In this document: positions 34,126 to 44,714 of the stretch, one piece after another
How the letters are laid out: the number at the start of each line of letters is the position of its first letter
How positions within the stretch are numbered: the stretch's first letter is position 1
Origin: Lentzea tibetensis
Lineage (GTDB): Bacteria; Actinomycetota; Actinomycetes; Mycobacteriales; Pseudonocardiaceae
Assembly: GCF_007845675.1 (NCBI RefSeq)
Contig: NZ_VOBR01000033.1
Coordinates: forward strand, 38,452-102,451
Direction of reading: 5' to 3'
DNA: 64,000 nt
The notes under the pieces: model-generated
Database searches by the model: none
Seen by the model: only the letters and a program-made list of their open reading frames with translations
What the model was told of the DNA's origin: nothing
Program-made: the position numbers and the translations under genes

Positions 34126-34358
34126 CAGCGGCCCCCTAAGTCAGATCAGCGTCAATACGTGTTTCCCCGACCCTATTGGTCCACTCGGACGCTAGCCAGG
34201 CGGGCCTAGTATGGCCGCACCGACGGCTTCCGCACGGGCTGTTCGCGGAACACGTTCGACTGGGTTTTTTCCCGACCCACCTTCGCGCCGTGAGCGGATG
34301 CGCCATAGTGTCGGTTGCTACTGGTGGCGTAACGAAGAGTCGAAGAGGTGCCTGTCAG

Positions 34359-37300
34359 TTGAGCACGCTGCAGTTCAAGCGAACGGCACGCCTTGCTGCT
34401 CCCCGGCCCCCTGGTGGTGAGGTACACCTCGAACCGCCACCCGAGGTGCCCAGGGTCATTCCCGGCAACGTGATGATGAAGGCGATGCCCGTCGTCATGA
34501 TCGTGGCGTCCGTCGGCATGATGGCCATGATGTTCACCACGAGTGGGCGCAACCCGGCCGCGATGATCATGCCGGGCATGATGCTCATCTCGACCGTCGG
34601 CATGATGGCCGGTGGCATGGGCTCGGGCAAGGGCCAGAAGAAAGCCGAGATGAACGAGGACCGCAAGGACTACCTGCGGTACCTCGGCCAGATGCGCGAC
34701 CGCGCCCGCGAAGCCGCGGACGAGCAGCGCGCCGAGCGCGAGTGGGTCCACCCGGACCCGCAGATGCTCTGGTCGCTCGCCACGACGCGGCGCATGTGGG
34801 AACGACGTCAGAACGACCCGGACTTCTGCCACCTGCGCGCCGGTCGCGGCTCGCAGCGGCTCGCCACCAGACTCGTGCCGCCGCAGACCGGCCCGGTCGA
34901 GGAGCTGGAGCCCATCGCGACGCTGGCGCTGCGCCGTTTCGTGCGCGCCCACTCGCTGGTGCCCGAGCTCCCCATCTCCATCGCGCTGCGCGGTTTCGCC
35001 GCCGTCGGCCTGATCGGTGAGATCGAGGACCGCCGCAACCTGGCTCGCGCGCTGCTCGCCCAGCTCGCCACGTTCCACTCGCCGGACGACCTGCTGATCG
35101 CGGTCGTCTCCGCGGGCCGGACGAAGCAGCTGTGGGAGTGGGCGAAGTGGCTGCCGCACGTGCAGCACCCGTCGGACGTCGACGGCATCGGCCAGCGCCG
35201 CATGATGGCGAACTCGCTCGCCGAGATCGAGGCCATGCTCGACGAGTACCTGCGCGACCGGCAGCGGTTCACCCGCAACGCGCCGCCGCCCGCGGACCAG
35301 CCGCACATCGTGATCGTCATCGACGACGGCGACATCTCCAGGGAAGAGCAGATCATCCTGGAGGAGGGCCTGGTCGGCGTCACGCTGCTCGACCTGTCCG
35401 AGTGCCTCGGCAACCTGACCGCCCGGCGCGGCCTGCGCCTGGTGATCGAGGACGGCAAGCTCGGTGCCCGCTCCGCGAGCGGTGTCGAGTGGTTCGGCGG
35501 CCCGGACGCGCTGAGCATCGTCGAGATGGAGGCGCTCGCCAGGCGGATCTCCCCGTACCGGATGGGCGCCGCCGGCGAGGCGGGCGGTCTGGACGAGGAC
35601 CCGCTCGCGATGAGCAACAACCCGCCGCTGCTCGAGTTCATGGGCATCCAGGGCGACCCGCTGTCGTTCGACGTCCAGCAGGCGTGGCGGCCGAGGCCGA
35701 AGCGCGACCGCTACCGCATCCCGTTCGGCATCGGCGAGCACGGCCAGCAGGTCGAGCTGGACATCAAGGAAGCCGCCGAGGAGGGCATGGGCCCGCACGG
35801 CCTGTGCATCGGTGCGACCGGTTCCGGTAAGTCCGAGTTCCTCCGCACGCTCGTGCTGGGCCTGCTCGCGTCGCACTCGTCGACCGCGCTCAACATGATC
35901 CTCGTCGACTTCAAGGGTGGTGCGACGTTCCTCGGTCTGGACAAGGCACCGCACGTCGCCGCGACGATCACCAACCTCGCAGGCGACCTGACGCTCGTCG
36001 ACCGCATGAAGGACGCCATCGCGGGTGAGGTGAACCGACGCCAGGAAGTGCTGGCGAAGGGCAACTACAAGAACGTGTGGGACTACGAGAAGGCCCGTGA
36101 GAACGGCGCCCCGCTCGACCCGCTGCCCGCGCTCTTCATCTGCATCGACGAGTTCTCCGAGATGCTGACGGCGAAGCCGGACTTCATCGACATCTTCCTC
36201 CAGATCGGTCGTGTCGGCCGGTCGCTGCAGATGCACATGCTCCTCGCGTCGCAGCGGCTCGAGGAAGGCAAGCTGCGCGGTCTGGACACGTTCCTCTCGT
36301 ACCGGATCGGTCTGAAGACGTTCAACGCGGCGGAGTCCCGTGCGGCGATCGGCGTGCCCGACGCGTACGAGCTGCCGCCGATCCCCGGCTCGGGTTACCT
36401 GAGCGTGCAGGGCATGCCGCTGACCAGGTTCAAGGCGCTCTACGTCTCGGGTGCCTACCGGCCGTCCGGCATGCAGTCCGCCGGTGAGTCCGTCGCGGTC
36501 CGCAGCGACAAGCGGCCCCGCTTCTTCGTTCCCGACTACATCGAGATCCCGAAGGAGCCGGAGCGGCCGATCGAGCCGGTCGTCAAGGAGGAGAAGAAGG
36601 AGGAGGGCAACGAGCCGACCCAGCTCGACCTGATCGTCGACAGGCTCGTCGGCCAGGGCCCTCCCGCGCACGAGGTGTGGCTGCCGCCGCTCAACGAGCC
36701 TCCGACGATGGACACGATCCTGGTGCCGCTGGACGTCACCGAGGACCGCGGCCTGACCGTCCCGGGCAACCCGTACAACGGCAAGCTGGTCATCCCGGTC
36801 GGCATCGTCGACAAGCCGTTCGAGCAGAAGCGCGACCTGCTGGTCGCGGACTTCGCCGGTGCGTCCGGTCACGGCGCGGTCGTGGGTGGTCCGCAGTCCG
36901 GCAAGTCGACGATGCTGCGGTCGATCATCGCCTCGATGTCGCTCACGCACACGCCGCAGGAGGCGCAGTTCTACTGCATCGACCTCGGCGGTGGCACGCT
37001 CGCCGCGATGGAAGCGCTGCCGCACGTCGGTGGCTTCGCCGGACGTCTCGACGTCGACAAGGTCCGCCGCATGGTGGCCGAGCTCCAGGGCCTCATCACC
37101 GAGCGCGAGCTCCGCTGGCGCGAGCAGGGCATCGACTCGATGGTCGAGTTCCGCAACCGCAAGCGCGCGGGCAAGATCACCGACGACGACTTCGGCGACG
37201 CGTTCCTGATCGTCGACGGCTGGATGAACTTCCGCCAGGAGTTCGAGGCCGTCGAGCCGCAGGTGCAGGCGCTGGCCGCACAGGGCCTGTCGTACGGCGT

Positions 37301-38366
37301 CCACGTGATCGTGGCCGCCAACCGGTGGGCCGAGATCCGTCCCGCGATGAAGGACCTCCTGGGGACGCGCTTCGAGCTGCGCCTCGGTGACCCGAGCGAG
37401 TCGGAGATCGACCGCAAGGTCGCCGTCAACGTGCCCGCCGGCCGTCCCGGCCGCGGCCTCACGGCGGACCGGCTGCACTTCCTCGCCGGCCTGCCCCGCA
37501 TCGACACGATCCAGGACCCGCAGACGATCTCGGCCGGTGTGCAGGACCTGGCCGCCAAGCTCAACGCGGCGTGGCGCGGCAAGCACGCGCCCGCGGTGCG
37601 GATGCTGCCGGACCTCATGCCGTACGACCAGTTCATGCAGCAGGTCCAGGCCCAGCGGCCGAACCGCGGCCACCTGGTCCCGGTCGGCGTCAACGAGGAC
37701 GAGCTGGCCCCGGTCTACCTGGACTTCGATGCAGACCCGCACTTCTACACGCTGGCCGACGGCGAGTCCGGCAAGACGAACATCCTGCGCACGATCGTGC
37801 GCGGCATCATGACCAGCTACACCTCGCAGGAGGCGTTGATCCTGCTGGTCGACTACCGCCGCACGATGCTCGGTTTCATCGACACCGACCACCTGCTGGC
37901 CTACGCGGTGTCGTCCGCGCAGCTCGGCGACATGGTCAAGGACGTCCGCAGCTCCCTGAACGGCCGGCTGCCCGGCCCGAACGTCACGCAGGAAGAGCTC
38001 AGGAACAGGTCGTGGTGGAAGGGCCCTGAGGTCTTCGTCGTCGTCGACGACTACGACCTCGTGGCCCCGCAGGGTGCGCCGAACCCGCTGCAGCCGCTGT
38101 CCGAGTTCATCCCGCAGGCGAAGGACGTCGGTCTGCACATCGTCGTGACCCGCCGCATGGGTGGCGCGTCGCGCGCGATGTTCGACCCGGTCCTCGGCAA
38201 GCTGAAGGAGATCTCGGCACCGATCTTCGTCGGTTCCGGTTCCAAGGAGGAAGGCAACATCGTCGGCAACCTCAAGGCGTCGCCGCAGCCTCCTGGCCGG
38301 GGCACGCTGGTGACCCGCAAGCACGGGCAGCAGCGCATCCAGTACGCCTGGATCCAGCCCGACTAG
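34359..38366 (+). CDS. eccC: Type VII secretion motor ATPase EccC, three ATPase domains
   Basis: FtsK/SpoIIIE-type motor that recognises WXG100 substrates and drives export. A TTG start at 34359, with GAGGTG upstream, gives MSTLQFKRTARLAAPRPPGG, 1335 residues. Upstream codons to 34176 are open but unlike EccC. Two N-terminal membrane helices lie at about 45-90. Three P-loops are intact: GATGSGKSE near 485, GGPQSGKST at 843-851 and GESGKT at 1135-1140. Walker B strands are FICIDE, FLIVDG and FVVVDD. It is a single fused EccCa-EccCb, as in ESX-4-type systems. Confidence 0.96.
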   Translation: MSTLQFKRTARLAAPRPPGGEVHLEPPPEVPRVIPGNVMMKAMPVVMIVASVGMMAMMFTTSGRNPAAMIMPGMMLISTVGMMAGGMGSGKGQKKAEMNEDRKDYLRYLGQMRDRAREAADEQRAEREWVHPDPQMLWSLATTRRMWERRQNDPDFCHLRAGRGSQRLATRLVPPQTGPVEELEPIATLALRRFVRAHSLVPELPISIALRGFAAVGLIGEIEDRRNLARALLAQLATFHSPDDLLIAVVSAGRTKQLWEWAKWLPHVQHPSDVDGIGQRRMMANSLAEIEAMLDEYLRDRQRFTRNAPPPADQPHIVIVIDDGDISREEQIILEEGLVGVTLLDLSECLGNLTARRGLRLVIEDGKLGARSASGVEWFGGPDALSIVEMEALARRISPYRMGAAGEAGGLDEDPLAMSNNPPLLEFMGIQGDPLSFDVQQAWRPRPKRDRYRIPFGIGEHGQQVELDIKEAAEEGMGPHGLCIGATGSGKSEFLRTLVLGLLASHSSTALNMILVDFKGGATFLGLDKAPHVAATITNLAGDLTLVDRMKDAIAGEVNRRQEVLAKGNYKNVWDYEKARENGAPLDPLPALFICIDEFSEMLTAKPDFIDIFLQIGRVGRSLQMHMLLASQRLEEGKLRGLDTFLSYRIGLKTFNAAESRAAIGVPDAYELPPIPGSGYLSVQGMPLTRFKALYVSGAYRPSGMQSAGESVAVRSDKRPRFFVPDYIEIPKEPERPIEPVVKEEKKEEGNEPTQLDLIVDRLVGQGPPAHEVWLPPLNEPPTMDTILVPLDVTEDRGLTVPGNPYNGKLVIPVGIVDKPFEQKRDLLVADFAGASGHGAVVGGPQSGKSTMLRSIIASMSLTHTPQEAQFYCIDLGGGTLAAMEALPHVGGFAGRLDVDKVRRMVAELQGLITERELRWREQGIDSMVEFRNRKRAGKITDDDFGDAFLIVDGWMNFRQEFEAVEPQVQALAAQGLSYGVHVIVAANRWAEIRPAMKDLLGTRFELRLGDPSESEIDRKVAVNVPAGRPGRGLTADRLHFLAGLPRIDTIQDPQTISAGVQDLAAKLNAAWRGKHAPAVRMLPDLMPYDQFMQQVQAQRPNRGHLVPVGVNEDELAPVYLDFDADPHFYTLADGESGKTNILRTIVRGIMTSYTSQEALILLVDYRRTMLGFIDTDHLLAYAVSSAQLGDMVKDVRSSLNGRLPGPNVTQEELRNRSWWKGPEVFVVVDDYDLVAPQGAPNPLQPLSEFIPQAKDVGLHIVVTRRMGGASRAMFDPVLGKLKEISAPIFVGSGSKEEGNIVGNLKASPQPPGRGTLVTRKHGQQRIQYAWIQPD

Positions 38367-38377
38367 CCCGGAAATCG

Positions 38378-38413
38378 AACGGGGCCCGCAGCCGGAAGGC
38401 TGCGGGCCCCGTT
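38378..38413 (+). terminator. Terminator after eccC
   Basis: Sixteen-base perfect arms AACGGGGCCCGCAGCC and GGCTGCGGGCCCCGTT around GGAA, followed by CTTTTGG, 11 bases after the eccC stop. Confidence 0.92.
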
Positions 38414-38440
38414 CTTTTGGTGGTAGCAGGGGTGTTGCTA

Positions 38441-38597
38441 CCAGCCCCCCAGTACCGGTTCACCGGCCGCGATCAAGAGGGAGAGGTCGCGGACGGTGTG
38501 ACGGCGGTGGCATCCCCCAGTTTCAATGTCACCGTCGTCCCGGTGATTGACACTCTGCCGCAGCCCGCTCACTTGCCGCTCACACATCGATGACGCG
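38441..38597 (+). promoter_or_regulatory. SARP upstream region with 11-bp GCTCAC repeats, copy A
   Basis: A block beginning AGCCCCCCAG-TACCGGTT and containing the 26-base dyad CCGCGA...TCGCGG (38468-38493) around ATCAAGAGGGAG, then GCATCCCCCAG. It is followed by GCTCAC at 38567 and 38578 and a degenerate GATGAC at 38589, 11 bases apart. TACACT at 38616 could be a -10. The same order and spacing recur before the Hsp70-like gene. Direct repeats with an 11-base period are typical of SARP binding sites. Confidence 0.6.
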
Positions 38598-38650
38598 GCT
38601 ACGTCGCCACCCGCCTACACTCGCGGCGCTGCGACCGTTTGGGGGGATCA

Positions 38651-41491
38651 GTGCGAGTCGAGTACCGCGTCCTAGGACCGTTGGAGGTCCTCGTGGACGG
38701 CCGTCCGGTGATCGTCCCTGCTGGACGCGGGCGCACACTGCTCGCCACGTTGTTGTTGCGCGCCAACCGTTTCGTGTCCGTCGACGAGCTGATCGACCGC
38801 CTGTGGGACGGTGAGCCGCCGAGCCCGGACCGGGCGAAGACGACGCTGCAGATGGTGGTGACGCGGCTGCGTCAGGCGCTCGGTGACGCGAACTGCGTGC
38901 GCACCGCGACCGGCGGCTACGTCGTCGAGGTCACGCCTGACCAACTCGATCTGACGCGGTTCCGGTCACTGGCCGCGCGGCACCGGTACGCGGACGCACT
39001 CGCGCTGTGGACCGGCCCCGCGCTGGGGAACGTGGCGTCCGACGCGCTGCACCGCGACGACGTCGCACCGCTGCTCGAAGAACGACTGGTCGTCGTCGAG
39101 CAGGGGATGGAGGCCGACCTCGCCGCCGGTCTCGCGGGTGAGCTGGTGCCGGAGCTGCGCGGCCTGACCCAGGAGCACCCGTTCCGCGAGAGGTTCTGGG
39201 TTCAGCTGATGCTGGCGCTGCACCGGTCCGGCCAGCAGGCCGAGGCTCTCGCCGCGTACCGCGAGGTCAGCGGGCTGCTGGCCGAGGACCTCGGCATCGA
39301 CCCGTCACCCGCGTTGCGCGAACTGCACCAGCAGCTGCTGAGCGGTGACGTGCCCGTGCCGTCCGGGTGGAAGGTGCTGTGCCAGCTGCCGCCGGACACC
39401 GGTGACTTCGTCGGCAGGGACAAGCTGTTCGACCAGGTCCGCGACCTGCTGACAGCGGGGCAGGCGGTGCCGATCGTGGTCGTCAGCGGCGCGCCGGGTG
39501 CGGGCAAGAGCGCGTTCACCGTTCGCACCGCACACCGCCTGCGCGACGCTTTCCCCGACGGCCAGCTCTTCGTGCGCCTGGACGGCGCGGGCCGGGCTCC
39601 GCGTGATCCGGCCGAAGTGCTGGGTGACCTGCTGACGGCACTGGGCGAGAGCGTGTCGGCTCTGCCGGACGGTCTAGCGGCCCGCGCCGCGGCGTTCCGG
39701 ACCCGAGTCGCGGATCGGGCGGTGCTGATCGTGCTCGACGACGCTGCTTCGGCGGAGCAGGTGGAACCGTTGTTGCCCGGTACCGCGCGCAGTGCCGTGC
39801 TGGTCAGCAGCAGGCGCCAGCTCGGCGGTCTGAGCGGGGTGCGGGGACTGCGCCTGCCGCCGTTCGACACCGGCGAGGCGTTGTCCCTGTTGACCAGGAT
39901 GGTCGGCGCGGACCGGATCGCGCGGGAACACGAGGCCGCGACCGTGCTCGCCGAGCTGTGCGGTGGCCTGCCACTGGCGTTGCGCGTGGTCGGTGCCCGG
40001 CTGACCGCCAGGTCGTCGCTGCCGCTGTCCGCGCTGGCCACCAGGCTCGCCGACGAACGCCGCAGGCTGGACGAGCTGGCGACCCGCGACATGGAGGTCA
40101 GGGCGACCTTCGGACCGAGCTACGAGGCACTGCCGCCGGACGCGGCGAGTGCGTTCCGCAGGCTCGGCGTGCTCGGCGCGGCGGACGTCGCGAGCTGGGT
40201 GGTCACCGCGCTGACCGGCCAGCGGGACGGTGATCGCCTGGTGGAGCAGCTGGTCGAGGCGAACCTGCTGGACGAGGTGGGCGTCGATGCCACCGGTGAG
40301 CCCCGCTACCGGCTGCACGACCTGCTGGCCGTCTACGCGAGCGAGTTGGCGGAGGCGGAGGACCCGGCCGAGCAGACCGCGGCGAAGCGCCGGTACGTGG
40401 AGGCGTTGTGCGCGCTGACCCACCGGGCGTGGGAACAGCTGGAAGTCATCATCGACGAGGTCGAGCCCCCGCCGTTCGAGCTGCAGGAGGTGCTGCCCGC
40501 GGACGAGGTGGCCCGCCTGACGGCCAACGGCCCTGCCTGGCTGCTGGCCGAACAGCTGCTGCTGGACCGAGGTGCGCGCCTGTGCCTGCGGGAGGGCTGG
40601 GTCGACCTCGCGGCAGGCTTGGTGGAACGCGCGATGCGGCACCTCGACGTCTTCTACCCGCTGGACCACGTGATCGCCACGCTGGGCGAGCTCAGCGTCG
40701 CGGCCAGGGCCGTCGGTGACCTCCGCGGCTCGTGGGTCTTCGCCAACAGCAGGCTGCTCCAGATGGCCAGACTCGGCGTGGACGACGCACTGCTGGCGTC
40801 GATCGGCGAGTGCGCGGACGCGTTCGCGGAGCTGGGCCATCACGCCGAGCTCGCCTCCGTGCTCGCCGCCCAGGCCCACTTCACCCGCGTCCACACCGGC
40901 AAACCGGCCCTGTCCCTCGCGGAACGAGCCGTCGACGCCGCACGCGTCAGCGGCAACGAGCAGATCTACCTGTCCGCACTGCGCGAGCTGGCGTCGATGC
41001 TGGCCGACAGCGATCGCTACGCCGAGGCGGTGCCGATCTTCGACGAGTCGCTTGAGCTGGCGTCCCGCTTGGGGGCTGGCCCCGAATCCCAGGTGCAGTA
41101 CCGAATAGCCCTCTACGCCATGGCGAACGGGGATCCCGAACGGGCCCGCGTGGCGTCGGACAGAGCAGTGGAACTGGTGGACGGCATGGATGATCTGCGA
41201 GCCATCGCCTACGTCACCACGATGGCCGGTCGCGTGGCCGCCGCGTGCGGCGACGGCACGACAGCTCTCGTGCACGCCGAACGCGCCGCGCAGATCTTCG
41301 ACCAGGTCAACGAGGGCATCGGCGCACTCGGCGCGCTCGCCACCAAGGCCGAGGCGTTCCTGTTGCTCGACAGGCGTGACGAGGTCGTCCGCCTGGTCGA
41401 CGAGACGCTCGTCAAGTACGGGGGCGTCGGCGCCGTCGAACACGAGGAGCGCCTCCGTATCGTGCGTGCCAAGGCTTTGTCGTCCGTCTGA
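38651..41491 (+). CDS. SARP/AfsR-type transcriptional regulator with NB-ARC and TPR domains
   Basis: A 946-residue regulator. GTG 38651, after GGGGGG, gives MRVEYRVLGPLEVLVDGRPV. Domains: OmpR-type winged helix about 1-90, bacterial transcriptional activation domain about 95-245, NB-ARC ATPase from about 255 with P-loop GAPGAGKSA near 280 and Walker B VLIVLDD near 360, then helical TPR-like repeats from about 600. This is the AfsR layout, an ATP-dependent activator sensing a partner through the C-terminal half. It stands alone between eccC and the Hsp70-like gene, flanked by terminators. Its upstream 11-bp repeats suggest autoregulation and control of the following operon. Confidence 0.93.
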   Translation: MRVEYRVLGPLEVLVDGRPVIVPAGRGRTLLATLLLRANRFVSVDELIDRLWDGEPPSPDRAKTTLQMVVTRLRQALGDANCVRTATGGYVVEVTPDQLDLTRFRSLAARHRYADALALWTGPALGNVASDALHRDDVAPLLEERLVVVEQGMEADLAAGLAGELVPELRGLTQEHPFRERFWVQLMLALHRSGQQAEALAAYREVSGLLAEDLGIDPSPALRELHQQLLSGDVPVPSGWKVLCQLPPDTGDFVGRDKLFDQVRDLLTAGQAVPIVVVSGAPGAGKSAFTVRTAHRLRDAFPDGQLFVRLDGAGRAPRDPAEVLGDLLTALGESVSALPDGLAARAAAFRTRVADRAVLIVLDDAASAEQVEPLLPGTARSAVLVSSRRQLGGLSGVRGLRLPPFDTGEALSLLTRMVGADRIAREHEAATVLAELCGGLPLALRVVGARLTARSSLPLSALATRLADERRRLDELATRDMEVRATFGPSYEALPPDAASAFRRLGVLGAADVASWVVTALTGQRDGDRLVEQLVEANLLDEVGVDATGEPRYRLHDLLAVYASELAEAEDPAEQTAAKRRYVEALCALTHRAWEQLEVIIDEVEPPPFELQEVLPADEVARLTANGPAWLLAEQLLLDRGARLCLREGWVDLAAGLVERAMRHLDVFYPLDHVIATLGELSVAARAVGDLRGSWVFANSRLLQMARLGVDDALLASIGECADAFAELGHHAELASVLAAQAHFTRVHTGKPALSLAERAVDAARVSGNEQIYLSALRELASMLADSDRYAEAVPIFDESLELASRLGAGPESQVQYRIALYAMANGDPERARVASDRAVELVDGMDDLRAIAYVTTMAGRVAAACGDGTTALVHAERAAQIFDQVNEGIGALGALATKAEAFLLLDRRDEVVRLVDETLVKYGGVGAVEHEERLRIVRAKALSSV

Positions 41492-41500
41492 CACGCGTCA

Positions 41501-41525
41501 GGCCCGCAGTGTCCAGCTGCGGGCC
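41501..41525 (+). terminator. Terminator after the SARP gene
   Basis: Nine-base perfect arms GGCCCGCAG and CTGCGGGCC with a 7-base loop, 10 bases after the stop. Confidence 0.75.
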
Positions 41526-41535
41526 CGACAGCGTG

Positions 41536-41692
41536 CCTTGCCCCCCAGGCAACCGGTTCCGCCGCGATCAAGAGGGAGAAGTCGCGGTGGCCGAGTCGGT
41601 GTCGGCTTCCCCCAGAGGCCTCCGCCGTCTCACCGGCGAGGACTACTTTGTCAGGCGTCGCTCACAGACCGCTCACACCTGGTTCACACGGT
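41536..41692 (+). promoter_or_regulatory. Hsp70-like gene upstream region with 11-bp GCTCAC repeats, copy B
   Basis: Homologous to copy A: CCCCCCAG, ACCGGTTC, the dyad CCGCGA...TCGCGG around TCAAGAGGGAGAAG (41561-41586), CTTCCCCCAG, then GCTCAC at 41660 and 41671 and GTTCAC at 41682, each 11 bases apart. GATCAAGAGGG to first repeat is 94 bases here and 96 in copy A. It lies about 85-215 bases upstream of the Hsp70-like start codon. Confidence 0.6.
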
Positions 41693-41775
41693 CCGGCGGT
41701 GTGGACGGTGCTGAAGCGGGCGCGCGCTCGGGTCTGATCAGGTATGCATGTGCTGCCTGAACGAGGGGAAGGTGC

Positions 41776-43482
41776 ATGAGCCTGCACGTCGCGGTCGACT
41801 TCGGCACGTCCAGCACATGTGTCGCGATCTCGGTGCACGGCCGGGAGCCGCAGGTGGTCGTGTTCGACGGCCAGCCGCTGGTGCCGTCCGCCGTCTTCGC
41901 CGCCGCCGACGGGACGCTCTTCGTCGGGCAGGAAGCCGAGCGCCAGGCCGCGGTCGACCCGGCCCGCTACGAGCCGCACCCCAAGCGCCGCATCGACGAG
42001 GGTGAGCTGCTGCTCGGCAGCAGCGTCCTCGCGGTCGTGGACGTCGTGCGCGCGGTGCTCACCCGTGCGGTCGACGAGGCACGCCGGGTCGCCGGCGGGA
42101 TGCCGGTCGACCTGCTCGTGCTGACCCACCCCGCGGACTGGGGCACGGTGCGTTCGCGCGTTCTCATGCAGTCCGCGCGCGGACTCGGGCGCGAAGTCGT
42201 GCTCGTTCCGGAACCCGTCGCGGCGGCGGTGTTCCACTCGGCCAGCCACGCGCTGCCGGACGGCGCCACGCTCGCGGTGCTCGACCTCGGCGGTGGCACG
42301 GTCGATGCGAGCGTCGTGGCGCGCAGTGGCAGACGCTTCCGCGTGCTCGCGGCGAAGGGCGACCCGAGCTTCGGCGGTGCGGACGTCGACCAGGCGTTGC
42401 TTGAGCACGTGGGCGCGATGGTGTCCCCGCACGACGGGGAGGCGTGGCGGCAGCTCGTCGAGGGCCGGGAGATGGCCGACCGCCGCAAGCGCCGGGTGCT
42501 GCGCCAGGACGTGCGCGGCGCGAAGGAGACGCTCTCCCGGCACGCTTACACCGATGTGCCGATGCCGCCGCCGTTCCCCGACGCGCACGTGACGCGGACC
42601 GATCTCGAGAGGATGATCACGGCTCCGCTCAGCCGAGCCGTGGCGCTCGTCACCACGTCCGTCCGCGATGCGGGCCTCGATCCCCGGCAACTGGCCGGGG
42701 TGTTCCTGGTCGGCGGATCGAGCCGGATTCCGCTCGTCGCGCGGCTCGTGCACGAGCACACCGGTGTTCTGCCGACGAGCATCGACCAGCCGGAGACGGT
42801 CGTCGCGCGCGGCGCTCTGCGCGCGGTGAGCCTCGATCCCGTGCGAACCGGGGCCTTGCCGCCGCAGCCGCCGCCGAGCACCGACACGACGCGGAAGATC
42901 ACCCGCCGGATCACGCCGCCCGCGCAGTTTCCGCAGGTACCGCACCAGCCGATCCGCAAGAAGAGCCGCAAGCCGCTGTACGTCACGCTGGCCGTCGTGC
43001 TCGCGCTCGTGGCCGGGGGAACCACCGCTTATTTCCTCCTGCGTGACCGGGGCAAGCCGATTTCGCAGTACGACTACAGCTTCACCATGCCTGCCGATTG
43101 GGAGCAGACCGGGGGCGATGTGCAAAAGCGACGGGTGCTTTTGCAACCGATGCAGCGTGATTCCGGACTCGATCGCATTGCTGTGCAGGAGCAAAAGCTC
43201 ACCTACGACAGTTCGGCCGATCGCTCGCGCGCGATTGAGGAACTGCGCAAGGGCTTCAAGGAGAGCGGCGAGTCCGTATCGGATTTCGACGAGAACGCCG
43301 CATTCGTCGGTAAGGACGTCGTGCGCTTTCGCGAGCAGGTCCCGTCGGCGACGGTCGACTGGTATGTGTTGCTCAAGGGAACCGCGCAGGTCAGTGTTGG
43401 CTGTCAGGCGTCCGAGTCGGGCCGGGAGCGAGTGCGTTCCGCCTGTGAGCAAATCGTCCGCACGATGACCGTGACGGGCTGA
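41776..43482 (+). CDS. Hsp70-like type VII secretion-associated membrane protein (Rv3446c family)
   Basis: A 568-residue fusion. Residues 1-360 are an Hsp70/actin-type ATPase: AVDFGTSST at the phosphate-1 site, AVLDLGGGTVDAS near 168 and FLVGGSSRIPLV near 315. The Hsp70 substrate-binding domain is missing. A Pro-rich linker, a basic patch RKKSRKP and one membrane helix (about 400-424) lead to an extracytoplasmic domain with two cysteines near the end. This is the arrangement of Rv3446c, which sits at the same place in the M. tuberculosis ESX-4 locus. It is probably an accessory or regulatory ATPase of the secretion system; mechanism unknown. Confidence 0.88.
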   Translation: MSLHVAVDFGTSSTCVAISVHGREPQVVVFDGQPLVPSAVFAAADGTLFVGQEAERQAAVDPARYEPHPKRRIDEGELLLGSSVLAVVDVVRAVLTRAVDEARRVAGGMPVDLLVLTHPADWGTVRSRVLMQSARGLGREVVLVPEPVAAAVFHSASHALPDGATLAVLDLGGGTVDASVVARSGRRFRVLAAKGDPSFGGADVDQALLEHVGAMVSPHDGEAWRQLVEGREMADRRKRRVLRQDVRGAKETLSRHAYTDVPMPPPFPDAHVTRTDLERMITAPLSRAVALVTTSVRDAGLDPRQLAGVFLVGGSSRIPLVARLVHEHTGVLPTSIDQPETVVARGALRAVSLDPVRTGALPPQPPPSTDTTRKITRRITPPAQFPQVPHQPIRKKSRKPLYVTLAVVLALVAGGTTAYFLLRDRGKPISQYDYSFTMPADWEQTGGDVQKRRVLLQPMQRDSGLDRIAVQEQKLTYDSSADRSRAIEELRKGFKESGESVSDFDENAAFVGKDVVRFREQVPSATVDWYVLLKGTAQVSVGCQASESGRERVRSACEQIVRTMTVTG

Positions 43483-44049: not shown

Positions 44050-44361
44050 ATGGCTAGTGGTTTCGCGGCGACGCCGGAAGAGCTCGACCAGCTCGTCACC
44101 GACATTCGCAACGTCAACGACAACGTGCAGGGCACCCTGAACTCGGTTCGCGGCACCGTCGACACGGTCAGCGGCAGCTGGAAGGGCCAGGCGCAGCAGG
44201 CGTTCTCCACGCTCATGGAGCGGTACAACACCGACGCGCAGAAGCTGCAGGAAGCGCTTCTCACGATCGCCGACGGCATCTCCGGCACCTCGACGACGAT
44301 GAAGCAGACGGAAGAGGAGCAGGGCGGCTCCATGAACTCCATCATGAACCGTCTCGGCTGA
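44050..44361 (+). CDS. WXG100 protein, EsxT/EsxU-position substrate 1
   Basis: Small secreted helical-hairpin protein of 103 residues. Helix 1 is ATPEELDQLVTDIRNVNDNV, the turn SGSWKGQAQQAF carries a canonical WXG, and helix 2 follows. ATG 44050 has AAGGGGGA upstream. It pairs with the next gene, probably as a heterodimer exported by the EccB-C-D-E machine. In M. tuberculosis the ESX-4 pair esxT/esxU occupies this position before rplM. Which partner corresponds to which cannot be told from sequence alone. Confidence 0.92.
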   Translation: MASGFAATPEELDQLVTDIRNVNDNVQGTLNSVRGTVDTVSGSWKGQAQQAFSTLMERYNTDAQKLQEALLTIADGISGTSTTMKQTEEEQGGSMNSIMNRLG

Positions 44362-44423
44362 TTCTCGCTTTCGTTCGCATCTCACTTCACATCTGACTTT
44401 CGCAAAGCTAGGGGAGAAATACC

Positions 44424-44714
44424 ATGAGTGGGGAAATCACTGTCACCTTCGGTGAGCTCGCCGCCGCGTCCGGCGAGATCACGGGCTCGGCTGGCAAGAT
44501 CGAGAGCGAGCTCAGCGACCTGAAGGGTCGCGTCGACAAGGTGCTCGCGGGCTACACCGGCGAGAGCGCCGAGATGTACCAGGAGGCTCAGAACAAGTGG
44601 GCCCAGGCCGCCGGCGACCTCCAGCAGGTGCTGAACTCCATCGGTGTCGCCGTGCAGCAGGCCGCTGACGCCTACCAGGGTGCAGAGCAGCAGAACGCCC
44701 GCCGCTGGGGCTGA
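44424..44714 (+). CDS. WXG100 protein, partner substrate 2 with YTG turn
   Basis: A 96-residue helical hairpin protein, MSGEITVTFGELAAASGEIT. The turn is AGYTGESAEMY, so Tyr replaces the Trp of WXG. The C terminus has YQGAE, a YxxxE export signal absent from the first partner, fitting the rule that one member of a WXG100 pair carries the signal. It starts 62 bases after the first partner, and a terminator follows 27 bases after its stop. Confidence 0.92.
   Translation: MSGEITVTFGELAAASGEITGSAGKIESELSDLKGRVDKVLAGYTGESAEMYQEAQNKWAQAAGDLQQVLNSIGVAVQQAADAYQGAEQQNARRWG

Follow-up and report, generated by a model that had tools for sequence, protein, structure and literature searches.

A putative small structured RNA gene, in copies antisense to a variable SARP array, at an ESX-4-like locus of Lentzea tibetensis

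SARP regulators are activators of antibiotic pathways, and the AfsS of the AfsR-afsS system is a small protein. C-rich hairpin loops are a mark of the 6C RNA of actinobacteria (RF01066). The gene order eccC4, esxU/esxT, rplM, rpsI we take to be the mark of an ESX-4-type locus. Here we analyze a stretch of 64,000 nucleotides (nt) of Lentzea tibetensis (contig NZ_VOBR01000033.1, forward-strand positions 38,452 to 102,451; hereafter the window), in which two look-alike units, A and B, stand before a SARP/AfsR-type regulator gene and an Hsp70-like gene (hsp70), downstream of the ATPase gene eccC. We consider it probable that A and B are copies of one small structured RNA gene of about 150–200 nt, read leftward and antisense to eccC, the SARP gene and hsp70. 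Two reports (PMC10936776, PMC4393881) describe SARP promoters with direct repeats of an 11- or 22-base-pair (bp) period, the 3′ repeat lying 8 bp from the −10 element. In the case of afsS, the afs box is placed at −40 to −19 with CACTGT as the −10, and its two 11-bp repeats overlap the −35 region upstream of this poor −10 (PMC10936776). In the units studied here, the distance from the end of the repeat hexamer to a minus-strand CANAGT is 9 nt in 57 of 65 aligned units of the genus. They differ from afsS in that the likely product would be a structured RNA and not the AfsS protein, and in that the motif points opposite ways for two putative promoters.

A preliminary description had reported that the regions upstream of the SARP and Hsp70-like genes are duplicated, and we find both in place, with their elements in the same order. 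A repeat search pairs 38466–38520 with 41561–41615 (55 nt, 80% identity) and 38566–38598 with 41659–41691 (33 nt, 76% identity). The GCTCAC direct repeats of exact 11-bp period are also present in both copies. Given on the plus strand without assignment to either, those of A (38567–38594) are GCTCAC at 38567, GCTCAC at 38578 and GATGAC at 38589, and those of B (41660–41687) are GCTCAC at 41660, GCTCAC at 41671 and GTTCAC at 41682. Their period is indeed that of SARP boxes (PMC10936776, PMC4393881). The 17-mer CCGCGATCAAGAGGGAG occurs free of mismatches only in the A and B stretches when the whole 9.36-Mb genome is searched. GCTCAC-N5-GCTCAC alone has three sites in the genome vs four for the reversed control, and was rejected as stand-alone evidence. 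The repeats are distinctive only in combination with a fixed spacing to the CANAGT box, as this promoter pattern (at most two mismatches) gives 67 matches in the 25 genomes of the genus (the window genome, G000, included) and none in the reversed control. By contig and coordinates all 67 lie at the eccC-hsp70 locus, counting six in G170, G200 and G209 whose contig is a separate one that carries eccC. The third GTGAGC-N5-GTGAGC site in the genome of the window (L198:3201-3217; G000:C55:72200) lies outside open frames of at least 80 amino acids and is without a CANAGT box; it is possibly another SARP target. We rejected the idea that B arose from A by recent duplication, as A is 88.9% identical to the first unit of the related genome G193 and only 61% to B. 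A near copy on a plasmid was also rejected, region A being without a match among plasmid records.

Read 5′ to 3′ on the minus strand, a unit comprises phased GTGAGC repeats, the CANAGT box, a closing helix P1, then P2, P3 and P4, and finally hp1, a GGCCCGC...GCGGGCC hairpin. The hairpin loops of P2 and P4 are CUGGGGG and CCCCUG, respectively; the loop of P3 is CUCCCUCUUG in type 1 units and CUCCCCAGUGG-like in type 2. The conserved fold is modeled as a three-way-junction RNA, in most cases with a final hairpin that carries a U-tract on the minus strand. Unit A, with its −10-like box and P1–P4, spans 38418–38557 of the minus strand, and unit B spans 41519–41650 of the same strand, with P1–P3 recognizable and P4 not; both are matched by two covariance models, R1 and R2. 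The dyad around TCAAGAGGGAG, singled out in the preliminary description, is real, but it is one hairpin of this larger structure and reads as RNA of the opposite strand: it corresponds to P3 (in A at 38467–38492, minus strand, CCGCGA...TCGCGG), whose minus-strand loop contains CTCCCTCTTG. The hp1 hairpins, to which no strand was assigned, lie at 38378–38413, where hp1 forms the terminator-like 3′ end of A and a clear T-tract is seen on the plus strand, and at 41501–41525 for B, with no clear U-tract on either strand.

Model R1 was derived from a structure written by hand on five type 1 units of other species. Seventeen type 1 units were collected, of which 12 were left out of R1 training and one, that of G213, out of an alignment of the other 16. 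A and B, both outside the training, were found by R1 with 44.7 bits (E = 2.8e-8) and 26.0 bits (E = 9.5e-4; L145:16762-16875), respectively, these E-values being rough because of a short calibration. At E up to 1, R1 gave 56 matches across 25 loci, A and B among them. R2 was built from 36 matches, both copies included, so that its scores for them are not independent: 79.5 bits for A on the minus strand vs 17.1 for the overlapping plus-strand match, and 48.0 vs 15.9 for B. In alignment A5, with 65 units, 87.7% of the pair cells hold standard pairs vs 67.8% in shuffled and 27–46% in slid controls, two-sided changes are seen in 35 of 37 pairs, and none of 500 shuffles is as high on any of five measures. 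Compensatory base changes go beyond the controls on these structure-fitted alignments; an unfitted check was weaker. With the window stretch and nine loci as queries, no family of Rfam 15 reached its gathering score. Weak matches to Thr_leader, asX1, ar45, BjrC and others were below theirs and were rejected.

As to orientation, R2 has 65 matches with E of 0.1 or less, from 23 of the 25 stretches, and every one is antisense to eccC and hsp70. An AAA within 8 nt 5′ of hp1, which is a U-tract on the minus strand, accompanies 29 of 36 hairpins, vs 6 of 36 with TTT within 8 nt 3′, and minus-strand CTTCGG is seen in 23 of 40 cases. Helices other than P1a hold 100 G-U cells vs 50 A-C cells, an excess that the fitted alignment favors, and for 50 of the 65 units the better fold is that of the minus strand. 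These features bear on whether the structure acts instead as DNA, that is as a cruciform or recombination site driving array turnover, or within a plus-strand leader. The tandem array is hypervariable, as such a site would have it, and the inverted repeats can fold on either strand, with a slight advantage for the plus strand in A; yet the promoter-like boxes, the U-tract bias of hp1 and the G-U excess all point to minus-strand RNA. Moreover, the rightward −10-like hexamer, where present, is downstream of the structure, so messages starting from it would not contain the structure. We hold this explanation, in either form, to be very improbable.

The putative −10 elements of the RNA are CAGAGT for A (38552–38557) and CAAAGT for B (41645–41650), both on the minus strand. 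Two GTGA[G/C] repeats 11 bp apart stand 9 nt before CANAGT. GTGA[G/C] is found at exactly −15 in 57 of the 65 units and at −26 in 59, with nine occurrences at all other offsets from −50 to −5 together. These two positions lie outside the covariance model, and as the units are related, part of their conservation reflects common descent; the CANRGT box, present in 59 units, lies inside the model and is therefore partly built in. Of the 26 SARP-adjacent units, 14 have a plus-strand −10-like hexamer at a distance of 43–46 nt from the unit end, vs 6 of the 39 others, and in 7 of these 26 it lies exactly 8 nt behind the third repeat (offset 46). Most units, whether SARP-adjacent or not, retain the leftward box, which is not so for the rightward hexamer; this argues that the leftward RNA is more constant than the SARP promoter. 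In the window, TACACT (38616–38621, plus strand) is a possible −10 of the SARP gene. It lies 21 nt behind the third repeat of A, at least 13 nt further away than the hexamers of the 14 SARP-adjacent units. The proposal that the SARP activates its own gene stays plausible in view of those 14 units.

A leftward promoter in these units would consist of CANAGT as the −10 and of two to three 11-bp repeats near the spacing of SARP boxes. Most likely, a SARP would bind the repeats and activate the leftward RNA; both the binding and the production of the RNA are inferred from sequence. Since in A the putative promoters of the leftward RNA and of the rightward SARP gene lie on either side of these repeats, this SARP or one related to it would most likely switch on the RNA and tune its own gene.

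The preliminary description further had the SARP activate, besides itself, a rightward hsp70/WXG100 transcription unit from copy B. Like repeats of the SARP period do precede both genes, and the regulator has SARP domains. Nevertheless, no plus-strand −10-like hexamer is found behind the repeats of B, and the TATGCATG box of hsp70 starts 55 bp beyond the third of them. This hsp70-proximal box together with the ribosome-binding site (41743–41775, plus strand) is the leader part common to relatives; with no hexamer behind B and with hsp70 keeping a proximal box of its own, activation from B is left without support. Nor is the arrangement kept in G193, the genome nearest to that of the window in SARP and Hsp70 identity; there a second SARP gene lies between the last unit and hsp70, which starts 49 bp behind the SARP stop. 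A unit is next before hsp70 in only 3 of the 25 genomes (G000, G202 and G209). GNTCAC-N5-GNTCAC is absent within 700 bp upstream of hsp70 in all 27 other-genus loci, which are those returned from 51 other-genus genomes with a match. Repeats at a promoter-competent distance are thus not kept before hsp70, which for the Hsp70 half largely corresponds to what the preliminary description itself named as refuting, and we regard the proposal as a whole as improbable. Separately, a block resembling CGACCTTTGCCATCCGTGTCGTCC was seen by eye about 30–80 bp before hsp70 in most genomes of the genus (L141-L166) and was not seen in the window genome or G193; it is possibly a separate regulatory site.

The Hsp70-like gene is present in all 25 genomes (74–85% identity in the other 24). 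The stretch before it was taken from each, eccC being on the same contig in 22 and on another contig in G170, G200 and G209. Across these species the eccC-hsp70 interval at the secretion locus is a hypervariable SARP array with inversions and decayed copies (L141-L166). At one extreme, G202 is without a SARP gene; at the other, about six SARP genes or fragments are present, and part of them are inverted. The intergenic units often stand two or three in tandem without a SARP between them. In other genera the end of eccC is less than 500 bp from hsp70 in 19 of the 27 loci; together with the absence of the repeats from all 27, this makes the SARP array look inserted between eccC and hsp70.

Such turnover offers a history for copy B. 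The identities of B to the second, third and first units of G193 are 66, 65 and 64%, respectively, and a tree lacking support values places B beside the second and third; the first unit corresponds to A. In G202 a unit also precedes hsp70, with SARP C-terminal-like remains (recognized by eye) and no SARP gene. From these comparisons, B most likely came to stand before hsp70 through loss of the SARP gene that followed it, or alternatively G193 may have gained one. One could go further and see in all units neutral leftovers, promoter fossils left upstream by tandem duplication and loss of SARP genes. The varying number of SARP genes and fragments, the remains in G202 and the grouping of B with the two G193 units before its second SARP gene, weak as the three identities make it, would agree with that. 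Against it, compensatory changes, loop sequence and phased boxes are kept whether or not a SARP follows, and the rightward hexamer is concentrated in SARP-adjacent units. We give this explanation little credence.

Matches to the RNA are restricted to this locus. In whole genomes, R2 found it in all 25 of the genus, with 55 matches at E up to 0.1, every one on contigs of the eccC-hsp70 locus; scoring covered 123 first-look candidates per genome and may have passed over weak copies elsewhere. With stricter filters, a family sample of 200 genomes gave 11 positives, all of the genus, and none among the 189 others. A set of 48 named SARP loci from other genera gave one match, at E = 0.36, and the best in the 27 other-genus hsp70 loci had E = 0.28. 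The promoter pattern reaches further: it matches 37 of 391 family genomes (25 of the genus, 8 of g21, 2 of g22, and 1 each of g15 and g6), with one match for the reversed control. A SARP fragment is found at all eight g21 loci (50–65% identity over the best-scoring segment), with eccC at six of them. For g22 (G022 and G089) the surroundings were inspected in G022, where eccC, one SARP (39%) and hsp70 follow in order, with the antisense promoter pattern between eccC and the SARP. Neither eccC nor a SARP was seen around the g15 and g6 matches (G258, G005). In g21 (L228-L235) the motif lies between eccC and the SARP, twice in some genomes, and a hairpin with a GGGGGG loop recurs in most of the eight sequences; this is possibly a diverged relative of the RNA. 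The consensus fold of the eight sequences shows no advantage for the minus strand over the plus (−13.0 vs −13.6).

Like the 6C RNA, the present unit would be a small RNA of actinobacteria with C-rich loops on its hairpins. The two differ in that 6C is absent from the Rfam matches obtained here, in that the unit is a three-way junction with G-rich as well as C-rich loops, and in that this unit is found only at the SARP array. A literature search on SARPs with type VII secretion, SARPs with small RNAs, and structured RNAs of the family or of a presumed genus found nothing alike among the matches listed, few subscription journals being covered. A regulator with a divergent small RNA is a known kind of arrangement; here it would involve an RNA without a known family and a SARP array.

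As to what the RNA might do, we can offer guesses. Its C-rich loops could pair with G-rich ribosome-binding sites of neighboring messages, hsp70 being the best lead, or its own G-rich and C-rich loops could kiss. The ribosome-binding site of hsp70 is AAGAGGG in 22 of 25 leaders, the exceptions being the window genome, G193 and G051. Among the 18 genomes that have a type 1 loop, 14 show a pairing of this loop with the hsp70 ribosome-binding site that equals or exceeds the best 6% of a background of ribosome-binding-site-like sequences; type 2 loops rank at 7–34%.

Several observations weigh against an RNA gene under SARP control. Alignments A3–A5 were fitted to the structure, and an unfitted MAFFT/RNAalifold analysis of 16 type 1 units gave a partial fold of 20 pairs, 6 of them with two-sided changes. 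Copy B is without P4. The distance from repeat to CANAGT on the minus strand is 9 nt in those 57 units, not 8, and from predicted repeats the direction of SARP activation could be either. R1 placed four of its 56 matches on the opposite strand, each at E above 0.2. The plus strand folds better in 15 of 65 units and slightly so in A (−118.8 vs −112.5), and neither copy in the window has a good minus-strand U-tract. R2 finds no full RNA outside the genus, G022 and the g21 loci included; on G022 with filters off, scores were at chance level (best E = 0.16). Finally, the pairing between the type 1 loop and hsp70 is unspecific in the clade to which the window belongs, and it reaches only the best 8–15% of background sites in the window genome, G193, G202 and G212.

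The eccC, SARP, Hsp70-like and WXG100 genes around the units are on the plus strand. An FtsK/SpoIIIE ATPase (34176–38366; Pfam FtsK_SpoIIIE), presumably EccC, precedes A. The regulator gene follows at 38651–41491, with GTG at 38651 chosen as the start over the TTG at 38639 of the open reading frame list. Its assignment to the SARP/AfsR type holds, with Pfam matches to BTAD, Trans_reg_C, NB-ARC and TPR, and its N-terminal winged helix and BTAD followed by NB-ARC and TPR are those of a large-form SARP. The four best named relatives are from Prauserella, Actinophytocola, Actinosynnema and Haloechinothrix, all Pseudonocardiaceae. The Hsp70-like gene (41776–43482; Pfam) has a second relative elsewhere in the genome (L136, L146; G000:C57), 51% identical in the N-terminal part. 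Behind it come an open reading frame of 133 amino acids with no Pfam match, two WXG100 genes (44050–44714) and the genes of ribosomal proteins L13 and S9 (Pfam). The window thus has the order eccC, WXG100 pair, L13, S9, and resembles an ESX-4-type locus in its FtsK/SpoIIIE ATPase, two WXG100 genes, L13 and S9 in sequence. The difference is the SARP array with its RNA units inserted between eccC and the Hsp70-like gene.

One could extend the RNA gene reading to a new RNA family paired with STAND-type SARPs in a fast-changing type VII array, in which every regulator would drive a divergent structured RNA of its own that may in turn read it out or silence it, the array being a set of RNA-protein recognition modules that control secretion; this extension we consider unlikely. 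Should the RNA indeed be produced, the apparent shared promoter of the SARP and Hsp70-like genes would be explained as an RNA gene, and the units would represent an undescribed class of actinobacterial RNA tied to SARPs and to an ESX-4-like locus. They would also provide a compact system in which to test RNA control of type VII secretion.

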